From IMG/VR virus record IMGVR_UViG_3300013126_000249, positions 1 to 23,590 of that record: a DNA stretch of 23,590 nt; one strand, written 5' to 3'. The DNA is from a virus. The notes under the pieces were generated by a model, which worked only from the letters and a program-made list of their open reading frames with translations, was not told where the DNA came from and did not search any database. A program made the translations under genes and the position numbers. Positions within the stretch are counted from its first letter, which is position 1; each line of letters opens with the position of its first letter. Shown here piece after piece: positions 5,672 through 17,451 of the stretch.

Positions 5672-6148
5672 TTACCAACTAGCTCCTGTACCACCATCAT
5701 CTGCATAAACTTCTTCTAGTGTGACTGGAGCTGTTATTAATTTAAGACCTTGGTTTGTCATGATATAATTTTCATCTGTGTAAGGATTATATTGATAATC
5801 ACCAACATTTGTGCCAATATGTTTCTCGGATTTAAACATATTTAACCATTTTTGTCTCCATAATTCCTTTTCACCAGGAAATAACTCTTTAGTCAATGGC
5901 CATTTGTTTAATTCTTTAATTTTTCTAGTAATATCTAAGAGATCTATACGAGCTTTATATGTACCAATAAACACACCTGTAATGGGCAAAAAAGAATCTT
6001 CAGCAGCATGATCAAGTATCTGTACACTAGAAATTTCTATAAAGTCATGAGCATACATACCAAACAGATGAATTTTTTTATCCACATAATCGTCATATTC
6101 CTGAATAGTACCAGCAATAACAAATTTAGCTTTAACTGTCCTAGCCAT
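5672..6148 (-). CDS. Hypothetical protein
   Basis: This gene encodes 158 aa starting MARTVKAKFVIAGTIQEYDDY. ATG 6148 is preceded by GGAG at good spacing; a TTG 12 nt upstream is less likely. It contains a hydrophobic beta segment (FLPITGVFIGTYKARIDLLDI, about residues 54-74), a basic Trp-rich helix region (ELWRQKWLNMFKSEK), and an acidic glycine-rich tail (YADDGGTGASW). No family is recognised. It overlaps the preceding gene by 8 nt. Confidence 0.8.
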   Translation of the reverse strand: MARTVKAKFVIAGTIQEYDDYVDKKIHLFGMYAHDFIEISSVQILDHAAEDSFLPITGVFIGTYKARIDLLDITRKIKELNKWPLTKELFPGEKELWRQKWLNMFKSEKHIGTNVGDYQYNPYTDENYIMTNQGLKLITAPVTLEEVYADDGGTGASW

Positions 6149-6449
6149 TAGTATCTCCAAAATGACCTGATTCTATAATCATAAGTTGCTGTTCAGTGAA
6201 TGGTTTAAAACACAAGTCATAATAAGAATTTAAATATTTCACAGGATAAAATTTCATCCCTTGTTTTTCAATGACTGATGGTACTATATCAATAGTTGAC
6301 CCCTTACCTTTAAGTCTTAAATCATACACATTCTGTAAATGATACTGCTTATCTTTTGTTTGAAACATAACTGTCATCGTTTCAAATGTTCTTTCTTGTT
6401 CTAAATTTCTAAAGAAAGGTCTGTCGATGTCGAAAGTAATTGGTATCAT
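6141..6449 (-). CDS. Hypothetical protein downstream of DNA ligase
   Basis: This gene encodes 102 aa starting MIPITFDIDRPFFRNLEQ. It overlaps the ligase stop as ATGA, so it is probably translated by re-initiation. The sequence alternates short beta-like segments (YHLQNVYDLRLKG, GSTIDIVPSVI) and has no membrane helix. I do not recognise it. The tight coupling suggests co-expression with the ligase but says nothing certain about function. Confidence 0.75.
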   Translation of the reverse strand: MIPITFDIDRPFFRNLEQERTFETMTVMFQTKDKQYHLQNVYDLRLKGKGSTIDIVPSVIEKQGMKFYPVKYLNSYYDLCFKPFTEQQLMIIESGHFGDTNG

Positions 6450-7741
6450 TTAATTAGCTCTGAGCTGTCTGCTTCAGTTTTATCTTCGCGTAACTCAATA
6501 AAGATTGGTAAAAATAATGATTCTTCCCCCTGCTTGTTCTTAATACGGGCATTGTATTTTACCGCTATAACTTTTCCAAGTATCGTAGTAGTGTTTAAGT
6601 TTATCCGGTCTTCGTCTGTTAGACCTGACCCAACGGAGACCTTCAAGATGCCGTCTGAGGACTCTACGAGAAGTGCCCCTAGTTTGCCTTGGTATTTTCC
6701 TGCACCCTCTTCCAAGCCAACGATTTTTAAGTCGCATTCTAGTTCACCCTTATACTTAATTTGTGATTTGCTACGTTTATTTTCCCAGATACCTTCTACA
6801 TCTTTAAGAATAATACCTTCTTCACCATCTGCAAAATATTTGGCAAATAAATCATTGGCTTCATCTGCATTATTAACTATGTTATTAGGAACAACTTTAA
6901 CCTTGTCACTAGTAAGTTTAGATACTTGAACAGTAAGATATGAAAAGCGCTCTTGATATTTACGGTCATAATATCCTTCCATAAAGTATTCGTATGGGAT
7001 AGCATCCCATACTGTGGCATTAACTAGTGATGCTTCATCTTCCTTAATAGTACCCTTTGATGCTTTATTAAGAATACCATTACCTGTTTGACGATCTAGG
7101 ATTTGCCCATTTTGTTTTACAAGTAATTCACCATCAAAAACCATGTCAATGTTACCTGCCATAGTTTTGAATTCATCATCAAGGAAACCTAAAATGTTAA
7201 TTTCCTTGCCATTACGTGAACGATATTCTACTTCACCTGATCGAACAATAGCGTTAAATCGCATACCATCCATTTTAAGTTGTACATATGCTGGGAATGG
7301 GATTTTATTAACTAACTTTTCTTCGTAACCAGAACATAACATACATGGATATTCATGGATAAGTCCAGGCCAAATTTCATTAACTGTTGACGTAGAAACA
7401 CCACATTTAAGATCCTTGGCAATAATTCGTTCGATAACCTTAGCTGATTCTGGTGGTAGGTTACACAGAATTGAACGCAAGTGTTCGATGCCTTTATTAC
7501 CAGTATATGTTCTACTAGATAGATATCCTAATTGATCTAATGCTTCACCAAGACTGATATTAACATTTTCAATTTGTTTATACTGTGGAATTTTACGGAT
7601 GTAAAATTGTGTGAATGGGTCTAGAGCAAGTTTGATAACACGTTTAAGTAACTCATTATCTACTTGTTTTTTAAGATAATCAATCTTAAATAGTCTAGAA
7701 TTATTTGCTGCTAGGTCTTCAAATATTTGATTAACGTGCAT
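6446..7741 (-). CDS. 30: ATP-dependent DNA ligase, T4 gp30 type
   Basis: The 431-aa ligase would seal nicks in replicating or recombining phage DNA. The nucleotidyl-transfer lysine is in KMDG (K156), matching the KxDG of the ATP ligase family. Other motifs are FDGEL (202-206), EEGIILK (307-313) and the IKYKG region (about 328-332). The N-terminal part (VDNELLKRVIKLA, then KVIERIIAKDLKCGVS and IWPGLI) aligns with T4 gp30 (KDNELLKRV..., MMRDLECGAS, VWPGLIP). T4 gp30 is longer (487 aa). ATG 7741 is chosen because the T4 alignment begins there; an open frame to 7885 lies inside the preceding gene. It overlaps that gene by 11 nt and has only a weak GGA ribosome site. Confidence 0.95.
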   Translation of the reverse strand: MHVNQIFEDLAANNSRLFKIDYLKKQVDNELLKRVIKLALDPFTQFYIRKIPQYKQIENVNISLGEALDQLGYLSSRTYTGNKGIEHLRSILCNLPPESAKVIERIIAKDLKCGVSTSTVNEIWPGLIHEYPCMLCSGYEEKLVNKIPFPAYVQLKMDGMRFNAIVRSGEVEYRSRNGKEINILGFLDDEFKTMAGNIDMVFDGELLVKQNGQILDRQTGNGILNKASKGTIKEDEASLVNATVWDAIPYEYFMEGYYDRKYQERFSYLTVQVSKLTSDKVKVVPNNIVNNADEANDLFAKYFADGEEGIILKDVEGIWENKRSKSQIKYKGELECDLKIVGLEEGAGKYQGKLGALLVESSDGILKVSVGSGLTDEDRINLNTTTILGKVIAVKYNARIKNKQGEESLFLPIFIELREDKTEADSSELIK

Positions 7742-7988
7742 ATACATATACATCCATTTTAACTGCATGACGAAGTGGTAGAGATTGATTGTAAACCCAA
7801 GGTAATGCACCATCTGCCTTAGCATTAGATACACGTGGGCCACGAGCTTGACATTTAACATAATATGAACTGCCATCTGAAGCATTCATATATTTAATTG
7901 ATCGACGTAGAATAGCCAATTGTTGCATATCTGTTGCAGATAATGGATCTACTGTCATAACATAACTAGTTGATAGACGTTTTTTCAT
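7731..7988 (-). CDS. Hypothetical protein upstream of ligase
   Basis: This gene encodes 85 aa starting MKKRLSTSYVMTVDPLSATDMQQL. It is basic, with a helical N-terminal half (ATDMQQLAILRRSIKYMNAS) and a C-terminal half rich in Tyr, Val and Arg. It is coupled to the gene before it by TAATG and to the ligase by an 11-nt overlap. No family is recognised. Confidence 0.75.
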   Translation of the reverse strand: MKKRLSTSYVMTVDPLSATDMQQLAILRRSIKYMNASDGSSYYVKCQARGPRVSNAKADGALPWVYNQSLPLRHAVKMDVYVYAR

Positions 7989-8227
7989 TAAACTGTCTCC
8001 CCAACTGAAGGGATTTGACGATTCAACGTACGGATTTTAGAAATGGCTTTTGAAATTTGGGTTTCACAATAGTATTTCATACCTTCGGCTATACCTTCTT
8101 GTTTCATAGTATCTTGCCAGAAGATTACTTCTTTAACTAAATCATTCTTACGGATTACCTTTTTGGCATGTTCTACTGGCCATAACATTTTATTACCAGT
8201 AACCATTGTGATCATAACTTTATTCAT
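7988..8227 (-). CDS. Hypothetical protein, first gene of the ligase transcript
   Basis: This gene encodes 79 aa starting MNKVMITMVTGNKMLWPVEHAKKVIRK. AAGGAAC precedes the ATG. It is the first gene after the promoter at 8265-8293 and leads the group ending in the DNA ligase. The sequence is largely helical and basic, and the C-terminus contains KAISKIRTLNRQIPSVGE. No known motif is seen. Confidence 0.75.
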   Translation of the reverse strand: MNKVMITMVTGNKMLWPVEHAKKVIRKNDLVKEVIFWQDTMKQEGIAEGMKYYCETQISKAISKIRTLNRQIPSVGETV

Positions 8228-8270
8228 AATTTAGTTCCTTCTCATTAATTTATTTAATAAAGTCATTATA
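8225..8270 (-). repeat. Duplicated promoter-leader module, copy 2
   Basis: This is the second copy of the 46-nt segment from -10 to ATG, matching 5422-5467 with three substitutions and no gaps. It supplies the ribosome site AAGGAACTAAATT. Confidence 0.8.
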
Positions 8271-8293
8271 CCATATTATTTAATTAATGTAAA
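8265..8293 (-). promoter_or_regulatory. Early-type promoter
   Basis: The -35 TTTACA (8288-8293) is followed by TTAATTAAA, a 17-bp spacer and the extended -10 TGGTATAAT (hexamer 8265-8270). It drives the group 8227 to 5499, which includes DNA ligase. Confidence 0.8.
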
Positions 8294-8301
8294 CAACTAT
8301 T

Positions 8302-8463
8302 TTATTGATCACAATCACTAAATGCTTGAAACCATCTTTGGTGGCATGCTTTATCATCTGAATCGCAAGGACATTCGGCAATCTTGTCTGCGTATATATG
8401 TTTCTCAACTAATTTTTCTTTAGTTGGATCTATTGATGGTACTTCTTTTAATAATTCTGGCAT
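8302..8463 (-). CDS. Small Cys-containing hypothetical protein
   Basis: This gene encodes 53 aa from ATG 8463, two bases after the preceding stop. The C-terminal half carries four cysteines and a histidine (AECPCDSDDKACHQRWFQAF, then SDC). That spacing could bind a metal, though it is not a standard zinc-finger pattern. AAAGGAAT lies just upstream as a ribosome site. It is the last gene of its group and ends about 9 nt before the next promoter. No family is recognised. Confidence 0.65.
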   Translation of the reverse strand: MPELLKEVPSIDPTKEKLVEKHIYADKIAECPCDSDDKACHQRWFQAFSDCDQ

Positions 8464-8465
8464 GA

Positions 8466-8621
8466 TTATTCCTTTTGAGAATTTTGTTGTGGTTTTTGAC
8501 CAATCATGTATTTATAAAAACGACATTGCCATTCAAACCTTTTGGGTTCGTGATCAGGGTGAGCTAAGTTATCACCAAAGAATTCACATAACTCATCCCA
8601 GATCTTTTCTGCATTATCCAT
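8466..8621 (-). CDS. Small hypothetical protein
   Basis: This gene encodes 51 aa starting MDNAEKIWDELCEFFGDN. It is coupled to the exonuclease gene by TAATG. It contains HPDHEPKRFEWQCRFYKYM, rich in His and aromatics, and ends in a Gln-rich tail. A perfect TATAAATA occurs inside it (8509-8516), but it encodes the residues YKY and need not be a promoter. No family is recognised. Confidence 0.65.
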   Translation of the reverse strand: MDNAEKIWDELCEFFGDNLAHPDHEPKRFEWQCRFYKYMIGQKPQQNSQKE

Positions 8622-9055
8622 TAAATGGCTTTACCTTGCAATTTATACCATGCTTCTTTAATACCAATAGCATCTTCAAGAGCATTATGAGGTAAACTAG
8701 ACTCTACACCCATACGTCTTTGGATTTGCATTGTAATATTGTTACCAAGTTCCATCATTTCACCAGGTGCAGTAATTACTTGTTCACAGAAGTATTTGAT
8801 ATCATCTGGCCAGTCAGCAATAACTTCAATAGAATTATATTTCTTTAGATAGTTATATAGACGATGTTCAAACTGTTCTTTAGTAATAGGTTCTTTTAAT
8901 AAAATAGGAAGAACATTCTGTGTTACCCATGGATGACACTTTGATTCATCAAACTCAATAACTTCATAGAAATAGGTATCATTTTCATCAATCAATGCCA
9001 TTGAAATAAGATCACCTTGAAAACTGGTGAATTCACAATCTAAAAATAGTTTCAT
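8621..9055 (-). CDS. DEDDh-type 3'-5' exoribonuclease-like protein
   Basis: The 144-aa DnaQ-fold nuclease begins FLDCEFTSFQGDLISMALI (D6, E8 as motif I), has ADWPDD in the Exo II position (about residues 80-85), and ends with HNALEDAIGIKEAW (motif III, H and D in the HxAxxD pattern). This matches the small exoribonuclease family (Rv2179c-like) found in bacteria and phages rather than the larger DexA, which is encoded separately at 4354-4935. The likely substrate is RNA or short oligonucleotides, which is inference. The start ATG overlaps the upstream stop as ATGA. Confidence 0.85.
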   Translation of the reverse strand: MKLFLDCEFTSFQGDLISMALIDENDTYFYEVIEFDESKCHPWVTQNVLPILLKEPITKEQFEHRLYNYLKKYNSIEVIADWPDDIKYFCEQVITAPGEMMELGNNITMQIQRRMGVESSLPHNALEDAIGIKEAWYKLQGKAI

Positions 9056-9219
9056 TTATTATCCTTAACCTTTGAAGGTTTCTCTGGTCTTTCTTTACAG
9101 TAATCACAATCTTTTAGAGGACAGGTAAATTCCAACCACTCGTCACACTGTTCACAATAAAATGTGTCATATTTAGTATTATATTTAACTTCACTAAAAC
9201 AACCAGGACAAACTTTCAT
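9052..9219 (-). CDS. Small zinc-ribbon-like protein
   Basis: This gene encodes 55 aa from ATG 9219. It contains CPGC (residues 4-7) and CEQC (22-25), a classic pair of CxxC knuckles for one zinc, plus a second set of cysteines (C33, C38, C41 in TCPLKDCDYC). The rest is charged, with a Lys-rich C-terminus (KPSKVKDNK). Small zinc-ribbon proteins of phages often bind nucleic acid or RNA polymerase, but no specific partner can be named. It overlaps the exonuclease start as ATGA. Confidence 0.75.
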   Translation of the reverse strand: MKVCPGCFSEVKYNTKYDTFYCEQCDEWLEFTCPLKDCDYCKERPEKPSKVKDNK

Positions 9220-9221
9220 TT

Positions 9222-9797
9222 TTAATCCCATAATGCTCTAAAGTATTTGCCAAATAAGCGAGTACCATTAGTAATACGTGTTTCATTGGCAAAATATGAA
9301 TCTTTATCCCATTCACCTAAAAAGTATTTAGTATCATAGTCATCATCACAAATTTGTTCAAATGCCCATATCATTTCGCCGAGAACCCAATCCCAACGGC
9401 GATGGATTAAATCTTCTGAATCTTCAATAATTCGATGAGTATTGTTTGGGTGTTTCTTAGTTTTAGTTTTCTTATTGTATTGCAATTCTGCAGGTACATC
9501 TTCATCTTCTACATTTGGACTACCATGTTTAGTAGCTTTCAATTGCTTTAACATAGGAAGGATAATAGGAGCTAATGTTGAGTCCATTCCCCACGTATCC
9601 CATTTATCAATCTTAACATATTCAATTTTACGATTGAAAAAATTTGCAATCTTTAACCATACTTCACAAGTTTTTGTTAACCATTCTGGTGGTTCTTTTT
9701 CATGTGCGTCATAGTCTTTCTTCCAGAAGAAGAACTTTTCCTTAACTGTATAAGGACTGACCCAGTTATAACGTGGTTTATTTAGATAAATTTTCAT
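9222..9797 (-). CDS. Conserved myophage protein, unknown function
   Basis: This gene encodes 191 aa starting MKIYLNKPRYNWVSPYTVKE. It is strikingly rich in Trp and acidic residues: YVKIDKWDTWGMDSTLAPI (about residues 59-77), then MLKQLKATKHGSP, and HRRWDWVLGEMIWAFEQI (about 132-149). I recognise this pattern from a conserved protein of T4-like phages of aquatic bacteria; its function is not known to me. AGGG precedes the ATG, and the start overlaps the previous stop as ATGA. Confidence 0.85.
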   Translation of the reverse strand: MKIYLNKPRYNWVSPYTVKEKFFFWKKDYDAHEKEPPEWLTKTCEVWLKIANFFNRKIEYVKIDKWDTWGMDSTLAPIILPMLKQLKATKHGSPNVEDEDVPAELQYNKKTKTKKHPNNTHRIIEDSEDLIHRRWDWVLGEMIWAFEQICDDDYDTKYFLGEWDKDSYFANETRITNGTRLFGKYFRALWD

Positions 9798-10003
9798 GAT
9801 ATTACCCTACATTTAGATTTAGTTCCATCAAACCAACATAAATTCTTTTTAGCTTCTTTTTCTGTAGAAAATGTATCAGTTACCCATTCATAAGTATTCA
9901 TTGATGCTGGAACCCATGACCAACGGAATAACCAATGTTTCTGTTGGATAACATACATAATTTTACCATCAGGTTTAGTAACTTCTACAATACGAGCTTT
10001 CAT
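9794..10003 (-). CDS. Hypothetical protein
   Basis: This gene encodes 69 aa starting MKARIVEVTKPDGKIMYVIQQ. ATG 10003 forms TAATG with the stop of the preceding gene, so I prefer it to an open start at 10027. The pattern is a beta strand, then WLFRWSWVPAS, then STEKEAKKNLCWFDG. That resembles small beta-sheet phage proteins with an 'FxTxEEAxxxL' element. No function is known. Confidence 0.75.
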   Translation of the reverse strand: MKARIVEVTKPDGKIMYVIQQKHWLFRWSWVPASMNTYEWVTDTFSTEKEAKKNLCWFDGTKSKCRVIS

Positions 10004-10149
10004 TATAGATCTTCCCGACACATCCATCCAAGGACTAATAGATATGTAGCACGAGCATATTCATCTAACCATACACCATAGTATGCAGAATATCCAAGTA
10101 AGACTAATGATATAATTTTGCCAGCTAAATTAAAAATATTTCTAAACAT
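10003..10149 (-). CDS. Small membrane protein
   Basis: This gene encodes 48 aa from ATG 10149 with AGAGG upstream. Two hydrophobic segments (IISLVLLGYSAYYGVWL, about residues 12-28, and ATYLLVLGWM, about 34-43) suggest one or two inner-membrane helices. It sits beside another one-helix membrane protein (10151-10360), so the pair may act at the host envelope. No family is recognised. Confidence 0.65.
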   Translation of the reverse strand: MFRNIFNLAGKIISLVLLGYSAYYGVWLDEYARATYLLVLGWMCREDL

Positions 10150-10150
10150 T

Positions 10151-10360
10151 TTAATTACCTCTTTTCAGTAGTTTTTCACGACATAGTTTTCTTACTTCTT
10201 GTGGAAAGTCAGGACTAATCTCAACTAACCTACAATCATACTGTACTGATACCATTGGGTTTCTGTCTTTTAAGTCTACTAGATTTATAGTAGCAATAAT
10301 GATGAAGACACCACAAGTAAATGCAACTAACATTGCAACAAAATCTTTAATAAATCCCAT
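10151..10360 (-). CDS. Small membrane-anchored protein
   Basis: This gene encodes 69 aa with one strong N-terminal transmembrane helix (FVAMLVAFTCGVFIIIATI, about residues 7-25). A soluble tail follows with two cysteines (DCRLVEISPDF, RKLCREKLLKRGN), perhaps disulfide-bonded if it lies in the periplasm. The helix could be an uncleaved signal anchor. Translation is coupled by TAATG. No family is recognised. Confidence 0.75.
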   Translation of the reverse strand: MGFIKDFVAMLVAFTCGVFIIIATINLVDLKDRNPMVSVQYDCRLVEISPDFPQEVRKLCREKLLKRGN

Positions 10361-10698
10361 TATCTAAACATTCTATTCATTCTAATTAATTCATTTTTAT
10401 ATAAACGTGATGCTGCTGTTTGTGCAGCTTCTAAGTCGATATATCGATTACGCATAACCAATTCGCAAGTCTTTTCTTCTTGCGTATATAGTTCATATAT
10501 TCCGTCGTTAAATTTAACGATAGCGTAAATCGATTGGTCTTTATGATAACCGTACCACGTAAAGTCTGATATCGACATTCTTTTTATCCATCCAAATGCA
10601 CTTAACTCTTCTATCTCTTGGTCTGTAAATAATGGTTGCATAATAATCTCAGGACTTTCAACTGGTTTAAAGTATTGTAACATTTTTCCAAACATCAT
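10360..10698 (-). CDS. Hypothetical protein
   Basis: This gene encodes 112 aa starting MMFGKMLQYFKPVESPEI; either of the two adjacent ATGs may be used. GAAGGTGGTG lies just upstream, and the start overlaps the previous stop as ATGA. The middle alternates beta-like segments (FTWYGYHKDQSIYAIVKF, GIYELYTQEE), and the end is a basic helix (AAQTAASRLYKNELIRMNRMFR). No family is recognised. Confidence 0.75.
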   Translation of the reverse strand: MMFGKMLQYFKPVESPEIIMQPLFTDQEIEELSAFGWIKRMSISDFTWYGYHKDQSIYAIVKFNDGIYELYTQEEKTCELVMRNRYIDLEAAQTAASRLYKNELIRMNRMFR

Positions 10699-10889
10699 TC
10701 ACCACCTTCTTCAACATCAATAACTTGATGTACAACAATATACCCTTCTGAATGTCGCATATCATCTATTTCATCCTGAGCATCAATCCAGGAATGAAAT
10801 GGCCCAGACCTATATCTTAACTCACCATAAGCTTTAATAGAATCTGGGTGTGTATACTTACGAACAACATAATATAAAGGTAATTTCAT
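10695..10889 (-). CDS. Small hypothetical protein
   Basis: This gene encodes 64 aa starting MKLPLYYVVRKYTHPDSIKAY. Both ends are coupled (TAATG at its start, ATGA at its end). It has the layout of a small alpha/beta protein: a strand, a loop with RYRSGPFHSWIDAQDEIDDM, a strand (GYIVVHQVIDV), and an acidic tail. No family is recognised. Confidence 0.75.
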   Translation of the reverse strand: MKLPLYYVVRKYTHPDSIKAYGELRYRSGPFHSWIDAQDEIDDMRHSEGYIVVHQVIDVEEGGE

Positions 10890-11230
10890 TAACCTCTCCG
10901 CATTTTGGCAATATCAATAGCATCTTCTGCTTTGAAAATTGGTACTGCATTAGATTTATGTAGTTGTCCAATGCCAATCATAGAGTCACCTGTATATTGT
11001 GGTGACTCTTTTTTTACAGCGGTGCCGTAGCCACTATCCAAGCTAGGTATATGGCTAGTGCTAGAACCGTCACGAATAACCCTGACAGAAGTAGGTCGTG
11101 TAGAAATTGTCTTTTTAGTTTCTTTAACATCATATTTTTTAAGAATATCTTCCCATGAAGCTTTTAATGCACGTTGTTTGGCATTAGGTTTACGTTGTTT
11201 ACGTTTTGGAATATGTGGATGAATGATCAT
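10889..11230 (-). CDS. Conserved T4-like phage protein, unknown function
   Basis: This gene encodes 113 aa starting MIIHPHIPKRKQRKPNAKQR. I use ATG 11230, just after the preceding stop, rather than an upstream frame start at 11302 that lies within that gene. The N-terminus is strongly basic, followed by ASWEDILKKY, a Ser/Thr-rich linker, and a conserved-looking C-terminal block (SPQYTGDSMIGIGQLHKSNA, then VPIFKAEDAIDIAKMRRG). I recall this block from proteins of T4-like marine phages without known function. The basic tail could bind nucleic acid, which is inference. Confidence 0.8.
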   Translation of the reverse strand: MIIHPHIPKRKQRKPNAKQRALKASWEDILKKYDVKETKKTISTRPTSVRVIRDGSSTSHIPSLDSGYGTAVKKESPQYTGDSMIGIGQLHKSNAVPIFKAEDAIDIAKMRRG

Positions 11231-11231
11231 A

Positions 11232-11444
11232 TTACCACTCTTTCTTTCCACCAAATTGTTCATTATCATCATAACCAGCATGATATGCATCAATTTCAGC
11301 ATCTGTCATGCCAGCCATCATAACTAAATCTGATTGATGTGTATCACCTACAAAGTAATGTGGTACACGACCGCGGCCATAATAAGAATCAGCTGAACCG
11401 CGGTCCCATGGACCACCGTGACGTTTATCATATACTGTTGACAT
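11232..11444 (-). CDS. Conserved small phage protein, unknown function
   Basis: This gene encodes 70 aa starting MSTVYDKRHGGPWDRGSADS. It contains a Gly/Tyr-rich motif (DRGSADSYYGRGRVPHYF) and ends DAYHAGYDDNEQFGGKKEW. I recognise this pattern in small proteins of phages and bacteria from aquatic habitats; the function is unknown. It has a strong AAAGGAG ribosome site and is first after the promoter at 11475-11503, so it is probably made in quantity early. Confidence 0.8.
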   Translation of the reverse strand: MSTVYDKRHGGPWDRGSADSYYGRGRVPHYFVGDTHQSDLVMMAGMTDAEIDAYHAGYDDNEQFGGKKEW

Positions 11445-11474
11445 AATGTACTCCTTTTATTAATTTATAGGTAC

Positions 11475-11503
11475 ATTATATCACCTAATTTAATTAATGT
11501 AAA
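11475..11503 (-). promoter_or_regulatory. Early-type promoter
   Basis: The -35 TTTACA (11498-11503) is followed by TTAATTAAA, a 17-bp spacer and the extended -10 TGATATAAT (hexamer 11475-11480). It drives 11444 down to 8302. The transcribed start GTACCTATAAATT is shared with the promoter at 21146-21174 and contains a near late-promoter box (TATAAATT, 11462-11469). Confidence 0.8.
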
Positions 11504-11512
11504 CAACTATTT

Positions 11513-11818
11513 TTAAATTTTAAATGCCGCATCGTTAGCTTGAGCAATAACAATACCAGAACCAAAGATACGTTCAAATTCATCTTTTAGATCTTTTTGG
11601 GGATCACCAACACCTAAAATAGATGTATTATATAATGTAATTTTACCTTCAGAATATGGCATAAAAGGAGCAAACCCAACAGTCATAGTTCCATCTTCTT
11701 TAGGACGGTAAACCAAAGTTACGGGATCAGCAATAATTTTAGAAGTATCATCTTGTCCAAGAAGATCAGCAATAATTTCTTCACCACTTACAAATTTAAT
11801 TAATACAATATTAGCCAT
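11513..11818 (-). CDS. Conserved myophage protein, possibly Sm-like fold
   Basis: This gene encodes 101 aa starting MANIVLIKFVSGEEIIADLL. It has the run of short beta strands and the 'SGEEIIADLLGQDDTSKIIADP' opening that I know from a conserved family in T4-like phages of marine bacteria, followed by GFAPFMPYSEGKITLY and FERIFGSGIVIA. An Sm/LSm-like barrel is plausible from the strand pattern but is not shown. The start overlaps the preceding gene by 8 nt. Confidence 0.8.
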   Translation of the reverse strand: MANIVLIKFVSGEEIIADLLGQDDTSKIIADPVTLVYRPKEDGTMTVGFAPFMPYSEGKITLYNTSILGVGDPQKDLKDEFERIFGSGIVIAQANDAAFKI

Positions 11819-12002
11819 ATACGTCTTTCTCTACTATAAATTCAATAAAAATGTCCGCATCAAGTGCATCTTTAAAATATCGGACTTGTGTTTTTGTTTC
11901 ATCTTCCATGTGATGAGCAATAAGAAGGAATGAACCGCCAAACTCTGACAGTTTCAGAAGATAGTTACCGCGTCTTAATGTGGGAAATGAGATAATTTTC
12001 AT
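11811..12002 (-). CDS. Small hypothetical protein after the hsp20 terminator
   Basis: This gene encodes 63 aa starting MKIISFPTLRRGNYLLKLSE. ATG 12002 lies about 10 nt after a terminator-like hairpin and lacks a clear ribosome site; an alternative GTG at 12032 would read through the hairpin and overlap the hsp20 stop. The sequence ends in an acidic hydrophobic helix (ALDADIFIEFIVEKDVYG). No family is recognised. Read-through of the hairpin would be needed for expression from upstream. Confidence 0.65.
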   Translation of the reverse strand: MKIISFPTLRRGNYLLKLSEFGGSFLLIAHHMEDETKTQVRYFKDALDADIFIEFIVEKDVYG

Positions 12003-12004
12003 AA

Positions 12005-12026
12005 TATAAGAAGGGGCCAAAGCCCC
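12005..12026 (-). terminator. Intrinsic terminator after hsp20
   Basis: The minus-strand stem GGGGC / GCCCC (12026-12013) with loop TTTG is followed by a T-rich tract (TTCTTATATT). It lies just after the hsp20 stop and immediately before the start of the next small gene. Confidence 0.7.
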
Positions 12027-12031
12027 ATTCA

Positions 12032-12523
12032 CTATTCTGTTAACAGTTCTTGTTTAGGAGTAGATACAGTTGGAATAACTCCATCAATTGGAATTTTCTT
12101 AGGTAATTTATGTTCAGGGATAATACGTTCTAGTGAGATGGTTAGTACACCATTCAATACACTAGCACCCTTAACTTGAACATCTTCACCTAATCCAAAT
12201 GTACGAGTAAAATCTCTAGTTGCTAAACCTTGATGGGTATATTCAACAGTTTCATCAACTGTTTTCTTTTTACCCTTAACTGTTAGTTTATCTTGAACTA
12301 ATTCAATATCCAACTCATGGTCAGCAAAACCAGCAACAGCAATTTCGATAGCACTATGAGTGTCATCTACTTTATAGATATTGTATGGTGGATAACCTGA
12401 TGAGTTTTTGTTTGCTGCTTCAGCAATTGAATTCATTCGGTCAAGTAAATCATCATAACCAATAAAGAATTTATCGAAGTCCTTGAACCCTGGACCAAAG
12501 GTAACTCTGTTGAAATTTGTCAT
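12032..12523 (-). CDS. hsp20: Hsp20/alpha-crystallin small heat-shock protein
   Basis: The 163-aa small heat-shock chaperone starts at ATG 12523 (AAGGAG six nt upstream); an upstream ATG at 12547 lacks such a site. The N-terminal region resembles IbpA-type proteins (GFDKFF-like: FGPGFKDFDKFFIGYDDLLD). The alpha-crystallin domain runs from about residue 44 (YPPYNIYKVDDTHSAIEIAV) to the conserved 'AsxLNGVLTI' motif (GASVLNGVLTISL, about 123-135). A short C-terminal tail contains KIPID, the I-x-I/V-like anchor used in oligomer assembly. Hsp20 is frequent in T4-like phages of aquatic hosts. A perfect TATAAATA late box and a UUCG hairpin lie in the upstream region, suggesting late expression, perhaps to hold virion proteins during assembly. 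Confidence 0.92.
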   Translation of the reverse strand: MTNFNRVTFGPGFKDFDKFFIGYDDLLDRMNSIAEAANKNSSGYPPYNIYKVDDTHSAIEIAVAGFADHELDIELVQDKLTVKGKKKTVDETVEYTHQGLATRDFTRTFGLGEDVQVKGASVLNGVLTISLERIIPEHKLPKKIPIDGVIPTVSTPKQELLTE

Positions 12524-12560
12524 TTCATTCTCCTTAAAATTAAGCAAGATTAATAAATTA

Positions 12561-12580
12561 GATACCCCGAAGGCATATCC
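12561..12580 (-). promoter_or_regulatory. UUCG-capped hairpin in the hsp20 leader
   Basis: The minus strand reads GGATATGCCTTCGGGGTATC, an imperfect stem capped by a UUCG tetraloop. It lies where a transcript from the late box at 12586-12593 would begin, so it may be a 5'-end stabilising hairpin of the hsp20 mRNA. It could instead be the terminator of the tmRNA transcript. Confidence 0.5.
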
Positions 12581-12585
12581 AATTA

Positions 12586-12593
12586 TATTTATA
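12586..12593 (-). promoter_or_regulatory. T4-type late promoter box for hsp20
   Basis: This is a perfect TATAAATA on the minus strand in an intergenic region, about 65 nt upstream of the hsp20 ATG. In T4 this octamer is the only strong element of late promoters and is recognised by the gp55 sigma factor. Confidence 0.65.
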
Positions 12594-12595
12594 AA

Positions 12596-12626
12596 GCTAG
12601 GTTATTCTGTTACGAGGAAACCTAGC
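12596..12626 (-). terminator. 3' hairpin of the tmRNA, possible terminator
   Basis: An 8-bp perfect stem GCTAGGTT / AACCTAGC (12626-12619 with 12603-12596) encloses a 15-nt loop and is followed by TTTATAAATATAATT. It may be a structural hairpin of the tmRNA coding piece or a weak terminator; the following tract also forms the late box for hsp20. Confidence 0.5.
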
Positions 12627-12842
12627 AAAACCCTAAGCAGCAACTAGGCTGCTAATGCGAATACTTCATCGTTTGCGATTAGATTCAATTTAACTTTAAC
12701 GTGTTATTTCCACGATTCTCCAGTAGTCTTTTGACCTCAATCGATTCCAGTTCACCCACACTAAAGATACTTTTTCAAATACCCTTAGTGTAGATGGCGG
12801 GAATTGAACCCGCGTCTTGAACTCATACCTCTACCTTCAACG
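12600..12842 (-). ncRNA. ssrA: tmRNA (ssrA), circularly permuted two-piece form
   Basis: In transcription order the acceptor half comes first. It has a T-arm with stems GCGGG/CCCGC and loop TTCAATT (12813-12797), acceptor 3' strand CATCTAC (12796-12790) and end ACTA, with no encoded CCA. After a processed spacer comes the 5' acceptor strand GTGGGTG (12759-12753) and the D-loop-like CTGGAATCGATTGAGG. The two strands pair fully with G3-U70 present, the alanine identity element. The acceptor helix continues into the spacer for 17 continuous pairs. The tag frame (12676-12644) encodes ANDEVFALAA-stop, preceded by AATC as in bacterial tmRNAs, inside a GCAGC/GCTGC stem. A final hairpin spans 12596-12626. 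tmRNA rescues stalled ribosomes with SmpB. The 5' limit is approximate, and it overlaps the end of the homing endonuclease gene. Confidence 0.9.
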
Positions 12843-13446
12843 AATTTTTTTGTGTCTTACCCTTAACAAACCCAAACGGTATATCTAAATTCTTATCTAA
12901 CTTTATATTAGATATACCATCAGTTATCCACATAAATCTTTTACCATATTGAGAATTCTTTTCACCTTGTTGATGATTAGACTCTTTCATAGTATCTTTC
13001 ATTTTTTGAATTGCATCATCAGTTTTTGATAATCTAATAACTTTTTTATGATGTTCTGGATCATTAAATGAACCCTTTCTACCCGCTTTATTTTGCAAAC
13101 TAACTCGTTTAGCCCATGCTTCTGCAAACACTAAATCAGATTTCATTTTCTCTGAAAATGATTTTCCACCATATTGTCCTAGACCACCTATTGCTAGATT
13201 ATACGTATCATCTCTTTTAATAAAATCTATATTTACAAGTTCTTTTTCTTTATCATACATCTCATCTTCTGATAAAAACTCTTGTAATATTTCTTTCTTA
13301 AAATTGTCAATACCATATTTTTCTATAGCATCTTTAACAACTTGTCCAGAACCCATATAACCGTCATTTAGATTGCTAGTTTTATGAACTCCAATATAAA
13401 TTTTATTATTAATTAGATTAGTTATTTTATAAATGTAATAATGCAT
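12823..13446 (-). CDS. GIY-YIG homing endonuclease (Seg-like)
   Basis: The 207-aa product starts MHYYIYKITNLINNKIYIGV, the GIY-YIG signature (YIY at 4-6, YIG at 17-19). The family's glutamate follows within DKEKELVN, and then TYNLAIGGLGQYGG, typical of T4 Seg-type enzymes. The C-terminus has NUMOD-like DNA-binding repeats (QQGEKNSQYGKRFMWITDG, then DIPFGFVKGK). ATG 13446 has AGGAG 5 nt upstream; a longer frame to 13530 would translate the tmRNA fragment. The gene is inserted between a truncated tmRNA copy and a complete one, and its last codons overlap the acceptor piece of the complete copy. It has its own late promoter (13464-13471), as is common for T4 homing genes. There is no room for a group I intron, so it is a free-standing endonuclease. 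Confidence 0.9.
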   Translation of the reverse strand: MHYYIYKITNLINNKIYIGVHKTSNLNDGYMGSGQVVKDAIEKYGIDNFKKEILQEFLSEDEMYDKEKELVNIDFIKRDDTYNLAIGGLGQYGGKSFSEKMKSDLVFAEAWAKRVSLQNKAGRKGSFNDPEHHKKVIRLSKTDDAIQKMKDTMKESNHQQGEKNSQYGKRFMWITDGISNIKLDKNLDIPFGFVKGKTQKNSLKVEV

Positions 13447-13463
13447 AGTTTCTCCTATACATA

Positions 13464-13471
13464 TATTTATA
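13464..13471 (-). promoter_or_regulatory. T4-type late promoter box for the homing endonuclease
   Basis: This is a perfect TATAAATA on the minus strand, about 17 nt upstream of the endonuclease ATG and placed just after the tmRNA remnant ends. Confidence 0.7.
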
Positions 13472-13480
13472 AAAATAATA

Positions 13481-13613
13481 CTCTCACCCAATCGAAACCT
13501 GGCCATCTCCACCAAAAGCATACTACCCAATTTATCGATATGGTGCTCATTGAAGAGCTATAATATGCTTTTGGTGGAGATGGGCGGAATCGAACCGCCG
13601 TCTTGAATGCCTT
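13481..13613 (-). pseudogene. ssrA: Truncated permuted tmRNA (ssrA remnant)
   Basis: In the same permuted order there is a T-arm with stem GGCGG/CCGCC and loop TTCGATT (13599-13583), acceptor strand CATCTCC with encoded ACCA (13582-13572), a 61-nt spacer, then the matching 5' strand GGAGATG (13510-13504) and the D-loop-like CAGGTTTCGATTGGG. The RNA breaks off at about 13481, where the homing endonuclease region begins, so the pseudoknots and tag frame are missing. Position 3-70 is A-U, not the G-U needed for alanine charging. It therefore cannot be a working tmRNA alone. The T-arm and acceptor sequence differ from those of the intact copy, so it is not a recent tandem duplicate. Confidence 0.8.
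13504..13582 (-). repeat. 19-bp perfect inverted repeat in the tmRNA remnant
   Basis: The arms 13564-13582 and 13504-13522 are perfect reverse complements, separated by 41 nt. They combine the 7-bp acceptor stem with a 12-bp extension through the ACCA end and spacer. This mirrors the precursor hairpin of permuted tmRNAs, from which the spacer is cut out. Confidence 0.85.
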
Positions 13614-13634
13614 ACTTTAGAGTTTACGTCGTTC

Positions 13635-13787
13635 TTATTCTGTTACTGCTTCTGATGCAGGTTGGAATGCTTCTTTAGCAATACGAACTGCTGCATTTAG
13701 ATTTGTTGCAACAAACAAACCATTCTCTGTTGAAATGATAAAACCACCATTTGCTGCTGTAATTGTTACGTTAGAACCTGGATTCAT
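13635..13787 (-). CDS. Small hypothetical protein
   Basis: This gene encodes 50 aa from ATG 13787, two bases after the omega-like gene. The sequence begins MNPGSNVTITAANGGFIIST, continues with two short beta segments (GFIIST, GLFVAT), and ends in a helix (NAAVRIAKEAFQPA). The layout, a hydrophobic beta hairpin plus helix, is like many small phage accessory proteins. The ribosome site is weak (AGTGAA), so coupling to the gene upstream is likely. It ends about 20 nt before the tmRNA remnant. No family is recognised. Confidence 0.65.
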   Translation of the reverse strand: MNPGSNVTITAANGGFIISTENGLFVATNLNAAVRIAKEAFQPASEAVTE

Positions 13788-13789
13788 AA

Positions 13790-14026
13790 TTATTCACTTT
13801 CCTTATTTACTTCATTTTCAAATTCCTTTAAAGCTTCATTAATTGGCTTTAAAGGGTACTTATTTAGCCGTTGCTGTTTAGAATCTAAAAAGTTTCTCGA
13901 TTTAGAAATATCTTTAGCTCTGCCAGCAGCTGCTAAAATTAGATCGTACACACTAAGACCTTCTTTTTCCTGAAGTTTCTCTGCTGTACCCCATACATCA
14001 ATATTTAAATGTTCTGGTTGTTTCAT
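13790..14026 (-). CDS. RNA polymerase omega-like small protein (tentative)
   Basis: The 78-aa product contains YDLILAAAGRAKDISKSRNF (residues 27-46), followed by KPINEALKEFENE (about 60-72). This follows the bacterial RpoZ pattern: E. coli omega has FDLVLVAARRARQM and later a K-[TP]-x-x-[AE]-L-x-E segment. Omega stabilises the beta-prime subunit, so a phage version could take part in assembling or redirecting host RNA polymerase. That role is inference from a short similarity. It is the first gene after the promoter at 14056-14084, which also fits an early function. An alternative is an unrelated helical small protein. Confidence 0.55.
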   Translation of the reverse strand: MKQPEHLNIDVWGTAEKLQEKEGLSVYDLILAAAGRAKDISKSRNFLDSKQQRLNKYPLKPINEALKEFENEVNKESE

Positions 14027-14055
14027 AATATTCCAATATTTTAATTAATAAGATT

Positions 14056-14084
14056 ATTATATCATAATTATTAATTAATGTAAA
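14056..14084 (-). promoter_or_regulatory. Early-type promoter
   Basis: The -35 TTTACA (14079-14084) is followed by TTAATTAAT, a 17-bp spacer and the extended -10 TGATATAAT (hexamer 14056-14061). It serves the omega-like gene, the 50-aa gene and possibly both tmRNA regions. Confidence 0.8.
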
Positions 14085-14099
14085 TATATTGAGGTTTTA

Positions 14100-14203
14100 T
14101 ACAGGTGATCCTCTTCCTGCTTAACGGTCCTAAGGTTAAGACCTACCACCGACATGACAACACTGACTCTAAAGACCAGATGTGAGAGGTTGGTGGGTGT
14201 TGT
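14100..14203 (-). ncRNA. Candidate structured late RNA with H-type pseudoknot
   Basis: The stretch between the pqqA terminator and the next promoter has no convincing reading frame but strong potential structure. Stem 1 is ACAACAC/GTGTTGT (14203-14197 with 14163-14157). Stem 2 is CCACC/GGTGG (14196-14192 with 14150-14146) and crosses stem 1, giving an H-type pseudoknot. A 7-bp hairpin follows (14143-14126, GGTCTTA / TAGGACC with loop ACCT, one G-U pair). A perfect late box at 14209-14216 would start RNA at about 14203, exactly the first base of stem 1. The 3' end is uncertain. I do not recognise a known riboswitch or RNA family. Confidence 0.55.
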
Positions 14204-14208
14204 AAATT

Positions 14209-14216
14209 TATTTATA
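14209..14216 (-). promoter_or_regulatory. T4-type late promoter box for the candidate RNA
   Basis: This is a perfect TATAAATA on the minus strand, located directly after the pqqA terminator. The predicted start, about 6 nt downstream, coincides with the 5' base of the pseudoknot. Confidence 0.65.
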
Positions 14217-14242
14217 AAATAAAAAGGGTCCCGGAGGACCCT
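14216..14242 (-). terminator. Strong intrinsic terminator after pqqA
   Basis: A perfect 7-bp stem AGGGTCC / GGACCCT (14242-14236 with 14231-14225) is closed by a TCCG loop and followed by TTTTATTTT. This is the best terminator in the window. It isolates the pqqA transcript from the RNA downstream. Confidence 0.9.
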
Positions 14243-14262
14243 ATACCCATCCCGAACAGGTA

Positions 14263-14334
14263 TTATTTATTCATCACATACATCGTGACTTCAAACCCAA
14301 AACGCATTTCTGTAGCTGCTGGTTTAGTCCACAT
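14263..14334 (-). CDS. pqqA: PqqA, pyrroloquinoline quinone precursor peptide
   Basis: This 23-codon gene reads MWTKPAATEMRFGFEVTMY then VMNK. It matches the PqqA family (usual length 22-29 aa) across its length: WxKP near the start, the [RV]xGxEVTxY core, and the crosslinked pair E15 and Y19 in E-x-x-x-Y spacing. In bacteria the radical SAM enzyme PqqE with the chaperone PqqD joins these two side chains, and further enzymes excise them to form PQQ, the cofactor of methanol and glucose dehydrogenases. A good ribosome site (AAGGAG, 8 nt upstream) and a strong terminator just after it show an independent expression unit. No pqqB-E genes are present here, so host enzymes would have to process the peptide. 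It is easily missed because of its size. Confidence 0.92.
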   Translation of the reverse strand: MWTKPAATEMRFGFEVTMYVMNK

Positions 14335-14357
14335 ATTATTTCTCCTTAATTAAGATA

Positions 14358-14383
14358 ATGTAGAATTTTCCTACATAATTATA
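14358..14383 (-). promoter_or_regulatory. Possible pqqA promoter and leader hairpin (weak)
   Basis: A -10-like TATAAT (14378-14383) within TATATATAATTATG is followed by a 6-bp hairpin ATGTAG/CTACAT (14358-14376) about 25 nt before the pqqA start. There is no TTTACA at the right distance, so this is neither a typical early promoter nor a perfect late box. Together with 14384-14441, which is very AT-rich and shows nothing else, this is the only candidate promoter for pqqA. Confidence 0.35.
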
Positions 14384-14441
14384 TATAAAATATAGTTAAA
14401 AATTCACTAATTAAAATTATTAAAAAGAAATAATTAACTAA

Positions 14442-14624
14442 TTATGTTTTAGAAATTTCTTGTGCTTGAGGTTGTGCTTGTTCAATAGCTGTTAACTGTG
14501 CATCACCTTGTTGTTTGATTTTACCAATCAAAGCTGCAATTTCATCAAATGGGTGTTTACCTAGTGAACGCAAAATTGCATTAACTTCATTCACACTCAA
14601 TTCTAATTTAATTACTGGTTCCAT
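14442..14624 (-). CDS. Conserved small phage protein, unknown function
   Basis: This gene encodes 60 aa starting MEPVIKLELSVNEVNAILRS. I choose ATG 14624 because GGAG stands 7 nt before it; another ATG at 14636 lies inside regA. It has a strand, then NEVNAILRSLGKHPFDEIAALIGKIKQQ, a two-helix pattern that I recall from small proteins of many myophages, and a Gln/Ala-rich tail. No function is known. Its position directly after regA, overlapping the regA stop, suggests coupled translation. Confidence 0.8.
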   Translation of the reverse strand: MEPVIKLELSVNEVNAILRSLGKHPFDEIAALIGKIKQQGDAQLTAIEQAQPQAQEISKT

Positions 14625-14625
14625 A

Positions 14626-15063
14626 TTATTCTCCATTATTTAAGTTGCGTTTAACTCCACCGATGTTATATTTCGGCACAAGTTCCCACTCTGCTTTCTC
14701 TTTAAATGAAACTACTTTAATTTGAGAAAGAGAAGCTTTTGGTTCTGCTTTAGTTTTATCTAAAATCTTAAGCAAACCCCAATCCTGTAAGAGTTCTGCA
14801 ATAACATTGCGTCTCTCAATATCAGACATACTGATATCAGACTCTTTGCCATCTAAAGCAAATAGTTCTTTGAAGTGTACAATAAAGTACCTTCCTTGTT
14901 TATGTAAAATGTGGCATGACTGAAACAGCTTCTTATCTTTTTTTGAAGCAATGCCGATGCGTGTTAAAGTTTCTCTAACCTTTAGAAAATTATCTGGTTC
15001 GATCAAATCAACTTCAAGCATGGCATCTGGAGTCCAGTCATAGTAAATCATACTAATGGTCAT
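14626..15063 (-). CDS. regA: RegA translational repressor
   Basis: The 145-aa homologue of T4 RegA (122 aa) binds the start regions of early phage mRNAs and blocks ribosome loading. The match runs from PDNFLKVRETLTRIGIASKK through FQSCHILHKQGRYFIVHFKE and LLQDWGLLKI to AEWELVPKYNIGG, nearly residue for residue with T4 (KPEDFLKVKETLTRMGIA, YQSCHILQKKG, WKLVPKYTIGN). It has a 14-residue N-terminal extension (MTISMIYYDWTPDA) compared with T4; ATG 15063 has GAAGGTGA upstream, so the extension is probably real. The gene follows gp62 as in T4. A perfect late box precedes it (15095-15102). Confidence 0.96.
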   Translation of the reverse strand: MTISMIYYDWTPDAMLEVDLIEPDNFLKVRETLTRIGIASKKDKKLFQSCHILHKQGRYFIVHFKELFALDGKESDISMSDIERRNVIAELLQDWGLLKILDKTKAEPKASLSQIKVVSFKEKAEWELVPKYNIGGVKRNLNNGE

Positions 15064-15793: not shown

Positions 15794-16750
15794 CTACTTG
15801 AACTTACACTGAGCCATAATTTCAGTTAATGCGGCCATTAGATTTAACTCTTGGTCCGCAACAAAAGCCGCCTTATATTGATAATCTGCCAAGATAAGAA
15901 TGAGTTGTGGAATACTTTGTGCTTCAAGATTATTGTAGGAAGTATCATATAACTGCCTGAAAATACTTACTGTTTCAGAGTCGCCATTCTTTGCAACCCA
16001 TTTACGAACTTCAGTAAAGTTCTTTTCGGATAGGTTCTTTACCAACTCTTTGAATGAATCCTCAGTAAGATTTAATAAAATACCAGAGTCAATCTTACCT
16101 GATACTGAATAACGTTGTAGTTCATTTAATACACGGCGCCAGTCAGGGAAGTGTTTAGTGATTAGTTCACCAACAACTTTAGGGTCAAATTCAACACCCT
16201 CTTGATTTAGGATATTAATAACACGTTTATAGAAGGCTGCTGCTAGTGCAGGTTTTTCTGAGTTATCAATCTTAAATTCAACAACTGCACATCGTGAATG
16301 TAAAGGTTCAATGATTCGGTTTTTATAATTACAGGTAAAGATGAACCGACAATTATTACTAAACTCTTCGATGAAGGAGCGTAGAGCTGGCTGAACCGAT
16401 TGTGCGTTCATATAATCAGCCTCATCAATGATAACCATTTTCTTAGCGTCTGTTAGCGACACCGTAGACGCAAAGGATTTAATCGCTGTGCGTAGAATAT
16501 CAATTGATCTACCTTCATCGGATCCGTTAATGAATAGATATTCTGCACCTACTTCATTACACAAAGCCTTGGCTACTGTTGTTTTACCAACACCCGCAGA
16601 ACCACATAAAAGAAAAGTAGGTAATTCACCTTGTTTAATGTAGTCCTTAAATGTTTGTTTAATTGAAGCAGGTAGAATACATTCATCTATAGTCTGTGGG
16701 CGGTATTTTTCCACAAATAAGAATTCATTCTGTTTTGTTGTTAGTGTCAT
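15794..16750 (-). CDS. 44: Clamp loader large subunit, T4 gp44 type (AAA+)
   Basis: The 318-aa AAA+ ATPase is almost the same length as T4 gp44 (319). The start FLFVEKYRPQTIDECILPA (about 11-29) matches T4 LEQKYRPSTIDECILPA. Walker A is GSAGVGKTT (50-58), Walker B is VIIDEAD (106-112), sensor 1 is FTCN (138-141) and the clamp-loader SRC motif is at 152-154. The C-terminal collar domain ends LMAALTEIMAQCKFK, comparable to the T4 end. It opens and loads the gp45 clamp using ATP. No good Shine-Dalgarno sequence lies in the 17-nt gap after gp45, so initiation may rely on coupling or an unstructured AT-rich start region. Confidence 0.97.
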   Translation of the reverse strand: MTLTTKQNEFLFVEKYRPQTIDECILPASIKQTFKDYIKQGELPTFLLCGSAGVGKTTVAKALCNEVGAEYLFINGSDEGRSIDILRTAIKSFASTVSLTDAKKMVIIDEADYMNAQSVQPALRSFIEEFSNNCRFIFTCNYKNRIIEPLHSRCAVVEFKIDNSEKPALAAAFYKRVINILNQEGVEFDPKVVGELITKHFPDWRRVLNELQRYSVSGKIDSGILLNLTEDSFKELVKNLSEKNFTEVRKWVAKNGDSETVSIFRQLYDTSYNNLEAQSIPQLILILADYQYKAAFVADQELNLMAALTEIMAQCKFK

Positions 16751-16767
16751 AATATAGTATTTTTCAA

Positions 16768-17451
16768 TTAAAAGTCAAAAGTTGATGCAGCTTCAACAGC
16801 AATGTAGAACATGTTTTCTTTGGATGTGAAACGTGAGATACATTTACGAGCAGAACCTTCACCAATTAATGCCAAGTCAACTTGATAGTCTGCTGGGATT
16901 AATTTAAAGTGTTCAACCTTAAGAATTGCATTAAATGTTTTATCTGTTGTTGCAATTGAAGTACTATATGATGTACTTGTTGCATTGTTAACTTCACCAA
17001 CATTAACACTTAGAGTTGAACCGTCACCACTAAAGTGAATACAAGATACATTCAACACTGACGCCGCACGACGAATAGAGTTGATTACATCTGCAGTAAG
17101 TGTAAACGTGATTACTGGTGCAGGGAAAGCAATATCTTTAACTGGATAAACAAGGACTTCCTTGTTTGCAGCAAAATATTTAATACTTGACTTGCCTTCA
17201 TTGATTGTGACAAACTTCTCAGAGAAGTTTAAGTCAGGGTCCGTAAATAATGAAAGTACGCCTAGGAATTCATTAAGATCATAGATACCAAAACCTTCAC
17301 CAACACCTAGTTCTTCTTCAATAGTAGTTTGACCTAGTAATGATTTACTAGGGTTAACAGTTTTAAGAATTTTGCCAGATGTTAATAGAATATTACTATT
17401 AATCTCTGAAAATGATTTTAATTTACTTAAGGTTTCTTTAGACAGTTTCAT
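16768..17451 (-). CDS. 45: Sliding clamp, T4 gp45 type
   Basis: The 227-aa DNA polymerase processivity factor has nearly the T4 length (228). It begins MKLSKETLSKLKSFSEINSN (T4: MKLSKDTTALLKNFATINSG), has FGIYDLNEFLGVLSLF (T4: VAIYDLNGFLGILSLV), and ends IAVEAASTFDF (T4: VALEADSTHDF). It forms a trimeric ring around DNA that tethers gp43; in T4 it also activates late transcription together with gp33 and gp55, which fits the late boxes in this window. AAGGAAA lies 6 nt upstream. The start overlaps the previous gene by 14 nt. Confidence 0.97.
   Translation of the reverse strand: MKLSKETLSKLKSFSEINSNILLTSGKILKTVNPSKSLLGQTTIEEELGVGEGFGIYDLNEFLGVLSLFTDPDLNFSEKFVTINEGKSSIKYFAANKEVLVYPVKDIAFPAPVITFTLTADVINSIRRAASVLNVSCIHFSGDGSTLSVNVGEVNNATSTSYSTSIATTDKTFNAILKVEHFKLIPADYQVDLALIGEGSARKCISRFTSKENMFYIAVEAASTFDF

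Follow-up and report, generated by a model that had tools for sequence, protein, structure and literature searches.

PqqA, the precursor peptide of the cofactor PQQ, is the source of all carbon and nitrogen in PQQ and is about 20-fold more abundant as a protein than PqqC or PqqE (PMC2294125). It is defined by a Glu-X-X-X-Tyr motif in the middle of a peptide of 23-39 aa, and no PQQ is formed when Asp takes the place of Glu or Phe that of Tyr (PMC2294125). Methylophilaceae from Lake Washington hold 3-12 pqqA genes and typically one copy of the remaining pqq genes (PMC4109929), and we found 2-12 pqqA per genome in 20 Methylophilaceae genomes, chosen for holding the pqqA form described here. For a PQQ producer, five pqqA copies have been described and PqqB-D were discussed as possibly reusable or rate-limiting (PMC9851590). 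In viruses, a PqqA gene together with a methanol dehydrogenase was reported in 2020 in VP_266, a T4-like Methylophilaceae phage population from Lake Baikal (PMC7678222), and a study of a reservoir also lists pqqA from viruses (PMC13188868).

The stretch that we analyzed (the window, a 23.6-kb virus fragment from IMG/VR) resembles VP_266 in being T4-like, in its predicted Methylophilaceae host, in its PqqA gene and in the functional idea proposed for it. It is a further case of published phage PqqA, because the Lake Baikal population came first, and the suggestion of the sequence-only reading that such genes are undescribed in related phages has to be withdrawn. There are also differences: pqqA of VP_266 occurs in a population with methanol dehydrogenase, whereas no PQQ enzyme or methanol dehydrogenase was recognized among the window ORFs that we read (a reading of ORFs, not a family search, in a fragment). 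Moreover, the VP_266 paper describes one case and does not treat a host-tracking pattern over several lineages, selection, or the absence of PqqB, PqqD and PqqE (PMC7678222). What appears to be new here, as we found none of it in the literature searched, is that all Methylophilales phage lineages examined have the gene, that they bring only the substrate, that the gene is under selection and that its site is linked to regA.

The pqqA gene of the window occupies positions 14263..14334 (stop codon included) on the minus strand, and translation of 14334..14263 gives the 23-aa peptide MWTKPAATEMRFGFEVTMYVMNK followed by a stop. The coordinates given by the sequence-only reading were right; the plus strand holds no gene there. 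Profile searches with PF08042 (E 6.4e-11, 42.4 bits, cut-off 21.1) and TIGR02107 (40.4 bits, cut-off 20) both scored around twice their cut-off, and the PqqA family search across the full record hit this one place (E 1.6e-11). Glu15 and Tyr19 are present with Glu-X3-Tyr spacing in 23 aa, as in the definition of PqqA, and by its sequence 14334..14263 is a canonical PqqA gene. The PHROGs phage library gave no match to these 72 nt. The gene has its own Shine-Dalgarno sequence, AAGGAG at 14342..14347 (minus strand), 7 nt before the ATG, as had been claimed, and is followed by an intrinsic terminator at 14225..14242 (minus strand), the hairpin AGGGTCCTCCGGGACCCT and then TTTTATTTTA. Calling it the strongest terminator in the window was an overstatement, because its folding energy of -11.5 kcal/mol ranks third over the whole window, after 10982-11009 on the plus strand (-13.9) and 18725-18705 on the minus strand (-13.2).

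We then placed the gene in its genomic setting. It is the last gene before the terminator in a co-directional minus-strand cluster, gp45-gp44-gp62-regA-ORF64-pqqA, in which we identified a gp45-type sliding clamp (16768..17451, phrog_223), a gp44-type clamp loader (15794..16750, phrog_168, 429 bits) and the T4-type translational repressor regA (14626..15063, PF01818 154.8 bits, phrog_242), with the gene between gp44 and regA taken as gp62 because of its place there. Between regA and pqqA lies a 64-aa ORF with no assigned function (14442..14636), and a similar ORF was present in 9 fetched pqqA-bearing loci that were searched. From this arrangement we infer early or middle expression of pqqA together with the replication genes. 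The record also contains an Hsp20 small heat shock protein gene (12032-12547, minus strand, PF00011 61.4 bits). Directly past the pqqA terminator, TATAAATA at 14209..14216 (minus strand) matches the T4 late promoter consensus; this late promoter-like site would start the next unit and not pqqA. A megablast of 10 kb of the window against annotated phages gave no match. Among RegA relatives at 88-93% identity, all five have pqqA 233-657 nt downstream of regA, and so do 16 of the best 80 RegA relatives (115-657 nt downstream). The other 64 of these closest loci have no pqqA nearby, part of them being cut off by the contig end, and pqqA is absent at many more distant RegA loci, long contigs included. 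With regA, gp44 and gp45 as neighbors, the same place in related phages and complete isolate genomes with pqqA, this is a metabolic gene in a genuine phage genome and not host contamination.

To see which phages carry the gene, we searched the window peptide by tblastn against 50,697 phage records. Nine of the matching records have a Methylophilales or Methylophilaceae host (four of Melnitz, and Venkman, P19250A, MEP301, MEP401 and MEP402), and the tenth carrier is the uncultured phage ctXG6705 from Manatee Spring, whose TerL is 74% identical to that of Venkman. The only other matches were two contigs labelled as Acinetobacter phage MD-2021a, which we rejected as a phage PqqA outside methylotrophs, the longer contig being chromosomal. 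This contig (CAKLQF020000010.1, 144 kb) has an unannotated pqqA with pqqB, pqqC, pqqD and a PqqE-like gene beside fur and ppk, and is for that reason a bacterial chromosome mislabelled as phage. Additional queries with the Acinetobacter-type PqqA (the peptide of that contig) and a Klebsiella PqqA gave the same carrier set and nothing further; since both still reach the divergent Methylophilales copies, the sensitivity of the search seems fair.

The carriers comprise Kyanoviridae (T4-like), Zobellviridae and the types of Venkman, P19250A and MEP301. Because Venkman and P19250A have been placed in one genus-level cluster (PMC8163748), we count the independent lineages as four or five. In IMG/VR, single-link clustering merged all contigs, and under a stricter gene-sharing measure the carriers formed 11 communities and 12 singletons. 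The phages of other hosts that are nearest by terminase, namely Pelagibacter phage Hodr, Vibrio ICP2, Roseobacter and Lentibacter phages and Pelagibacter HTVC024P, did not appear among the pqqA matches. The gene is present in all cultured Methylophilales phage lineages examined, which are part of the known ones, and every annotated carrier whose host is known infects a methylotroph. From its sequence, the host of the window phage would be a methylotroph. In the isolates, pqqA is either missing from the annotation or overlaid by an annotation on the opposite strand (Melnitz and ctXG6705), and the published accounts of Melnitz, MEP301, MEP401/402 and Venkman do not mention it. Where tested, Melnitz, Venkman, P19250A, MEP301 and MEP401/402 resemble the window in having the same peptide and lacking PqqB, PqqD and PqqE, but the cultured Methylophilales phages differ from it in lineage and in the genomic place of pqqA. 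Even Melnitz, T4-like as the window is, has pqqA beside a tRNA-Leu gene and not after regA. Between ctXG6705 and the first 20 kb of Venkman, nucleotide likeness is limited to the pqqA cassette (~85 nt, 90.6% identical); pqqA may be a mobile cassette or a sequence under unusual constraint.

To collect viral copies, we scanned IMG/VR with degenerate DNA patterns. The pattern GGNTTYGARGTNACNATGTAY was found in at least 120 loci, and all 120 were PqqA-like small ORFs. A second pattern, made from the N-terminal half only and leaving out Glu15 and Tyr19, gave 121 distinct places among the fetched loci; 120 of them keep Glu15, Tyr19 and the length of 23 aa, and one is frameshifted. Profile scores across all loci were bimodal (one of 1.1, one of 33.1 and the others above 42). 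Altogether, pqqA is present in at least 216 IMG/VR viral loci, a few of which are the same contig twice, and in annotated phages it is nearly always unannotated, which bears out the expectation that it would be widespread and missed by gene callers. The conservation across these copies also bears on what the peptide does. One could argue that it is a decoy or inhibitor that occupies PqqD/PqqE, shuts down host PQQ synthesis and redirects metabolism, as the sequence-only reading had offered as an alternative; the retained N-terminal part, as binding would need, and the carriage of no other pqq gene (in searches for PqqB, PqqD and PqqE) are both compatible with this. A decoy could dispense with the reactive residues, yet they persist in 120 of the 121 copies retrieved by the pattern that leaves them out, and when phage and host sequences are pooled, no form of the first 19 residues is commoner than that of the window peptide. 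We consider a decoy very unlikely.

For 166 distinct phage coding sequences, pS was 0.587 and pN 0.085, giving a pN/pS of 0.144; these are pairwise Nei-Gojobori counts and not tree-based, and pN is lowered because the search patterns fix part of the sequence. The same method gave 0.102 for the host copies. W2, P5, R11 and T17 are invariant in the 166 sequences. Of 192 phage copies, 184 have a Shine-Dalgarno-like motif in front. A terminator-like hairpin follows 61 of 188 phage copies (32%); for host copies the count is 107 of 134 (80%), and for control ORF ends it is 85 of 2528 (3.4%). Taken together, the pN/pS, Shine-Dalgarno and terminator counts indicate that phage pqqA is coding, selected and often a self-contained unit. 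On this sequence evidence, it is maintained as a functional coding gene under purifying selection; two of the observations named beforehand as refuting, non-conservation in related phages and a non-coding substitution pattern, were looked for and not found. In its 23-aa peptide, Shine-Dalgarno motif and frequent terminator, the phage gene is like the stand-alone pqqA of Methylophilaceae chromosomes, from which the window copy differs in standing in a phage replication cluster after regA. Phage peptides are also more varied, with 62 among 166 sequences as against 12 among 100 host sequences, the host set coming from a narrow pattern. Eight viral contigs (L025, L028, L075, L077, L079, L100, L109 and L119) hold PqqA forms unlike the common Methylophilaceae one, such as MKWETPSFEDLRFGFEVTMYINASN; from these peptides, they are perhaps phages of other PQQ makers, e.g. 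methanotrophs.

A small gene with many host copies (2-12 in our genomes) could also be a neutral passenger, picked up by chance and without benefit. Its 72 nt fit this explanation, and so does the fact that the closest phage copy and the closest host copy are equally near the window gene (best 92.8% each over 69 nt), which makes a host and a phage origin of this copy indistinguishable. Nevertheless, a pN/pS of 0.144 at a mean pS of 0.59 disfavors it strongly, and the conserved place after regA, the presence in all cultured lineages seen and terminators after 32% of phage copies against 3.4% of other ORF ends likewise go against neutrality, which we regard as extremely improbable.

Regarding the partner genes, profile searches of the 23.6-kb window detected neither PqqE nor PqqD, and neither PqqD nor a PqqE over the cut-off was present in 40 PqqA-bearing records, of which 34 are larger contigs and 6 are annotated phages. 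PqqB was absent from all 40, window included. A radical-SAM match in one PqqA-bearing contig was rejected as PqqE (27.7 bits, cut-off 381). The earlier statement that no other pqq gene is present in the fragment thus holds for PqqB, PqqD and PqqE; PqqC gave a negative result too, which we leave out of account because that search lacked a positive control. The idea that the phage brings the substrate only extends to the approximately 40 larger PqqA-bearing phage records, from which PqqB, PqqD and PqqE are absent.

A PQQ-dependent alcohol dehydrogenase was detected in one of the 40 larger records, a Melnitz-like phage contig (L462, IMGVR_UViG_3300025120_009955, 28000-47000) with the gene region at 5990-14790. 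The enzyme is a methanol dehydrogenase of 624 aa whose best solved relatives are XoxF (6oc5, 668 bits). The contig also encodes a formate dehydrogenase alpha (TIGR01591, 884.8 bits) and a quinoprotein dehydrogenase-associated SoxYZ-like carrier (TIGR04557, 197.5 bits), and carries pqqA plus the curli genes csgF and csgG, as in Melnitz, with an adjoining CHASE2 cyclase. XoxF and formate dehydrogenase alpha put both ends of the methanol-to-CO2 route in one phage. Scanning IMG/VR with this XoxF gave five contigs; the three that reach more than 0.7 kb past the xoxF end all have pqqA downstream (at ~0.2, 3.6 and 6 kb), and the other two stretches end before that. The proposed link to methanol dehydrogenase is in this way supported, by three phage contigs in which pqqA lies downstream of a XoxF-type gene and by annotated carriers that infect methylotrophs. 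For a decoy, occurrence in phages with their own methanol dehydrogenase would be self-defeating. A further explanation is that PQQ is made for another end than methanol oxidation: it could, for example, act in redox reactions, protect against radicals or serve a different quinoprotein. The lack of a recognized PQQ enzyme in the window fragment and its rarity (1 of 40 larger pqqA-bearing records) could be read in this way. Since the phage PQQ enzyme, where there is one, is a XoxF-type methanol dehydrogenase and all known hosts of annotated carriers are methylotrophs, we find this explanation unlikely.

We therefore favor, with good confidence, a functional phage pqqA whose peptide is supplied so that host PQQ synthesis and methanol dehydrogenase continue during infection. 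Supply is preferred over a decoy because of the retained reactive residues, the linkage to phage xoxF and the restriction to methylotroph phages. The phage would make PqqA during infection, host PqqD/PqqE would cross-link it at Glu15-Tyr19, and the remaining host enzymes would trim and oxidize the product to PQQ. PqqA is the sole component consumed, one peptide per PQQ, and PqqB-F, being catalytic, outlast a fall in host gene expression. If a phage shuts off the genes of its host, PqqA would be the first component to run out, and the peptide alone would restore PQQ flux for 72 nt. Substrate-only supply would thus be the cheapest route, as PqqA is consumed and the enzymes are catalytic and persist. 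PQQ-dependent methanol dehydrogenase would then stay active and sustain the energy supply of the methylotroph host. Cyanophages follow the same logic when they replace the fast-turning D1 protein. Expression of the peptide, its processing by host enzymes and an effect on the PQQ level and on the burst are what we infer from these sequences. Points against the supply reading are the small number of XoxF-bearing contigs (five) and the 64 of the 80 closest RegA loci that show no pqqA nearby. PQQ demand during infection may also be modest, because pqqA loss in Methylorubrum extorquens leaves 10-20% of the PQQ (PMC2294125) and a single infection cycle may get by on the PQQ that enzymes have already bound.

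These viruses probably keep the methanol oxidation of their hosts supplied during infection. More broadly, and with somewhat more reserve, we think it likely that having pqqA without the other pqq genes is a trait defined by the host: unrelated Methylophilaceae phage lineages would each have acquired and kept a 23-aa RiPP precursor because PQQ supply during infection is limited by the substrate that is consumed and not by the enzymes. It would be a consumable-substrate auxiliary gene missed by standard gene calling and a marker for methylotroph phages. If supply of the PQQ precursor is common among phages of the dominant freshwater and coastal methylotrophs, viruses would partly control methanol oxidation in infected cells, which is relevant to one-carbon cycling. 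A 72-nt gene with wrong-strand or no annotation in isolates can rank among the metabolic genes that occur most widely in a phage guild, and a 23-aa peptide could predict the hosts of uncultured phages. The cultured Melnitz, Venkman and MEP301 make the supply idea directly testable.

Besides pqqA, we observed other features in its surroundings. After its terminator and behind the late promoter-like site, 150 nt on the minus strand (14060-14208) have no annotation and are possibly a phage small RNA; folding of the RNA downstream of pqqA is not better than that of shuffled sequences (z -1.06). The motif CGGGATGGG is common to the sequence right after pqqA in the window and in two other loci (L060 and L265). 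Finally, two circularly permuted tmRNA-like matches to RF04321 were found on the minus strand, neither of them detected by ARAGORN in the window: that at 12644-12845 (90.3 bits) is complete, with the tag ANDEVFALAA, and that at 13476-13619 (62.0 bits) is without the tag half. A SegE-like GIY-YIG homing endonuclease ORF lies between the two, and this looks like a tmRNA gene duplicated or broken by the homing endonuclease.
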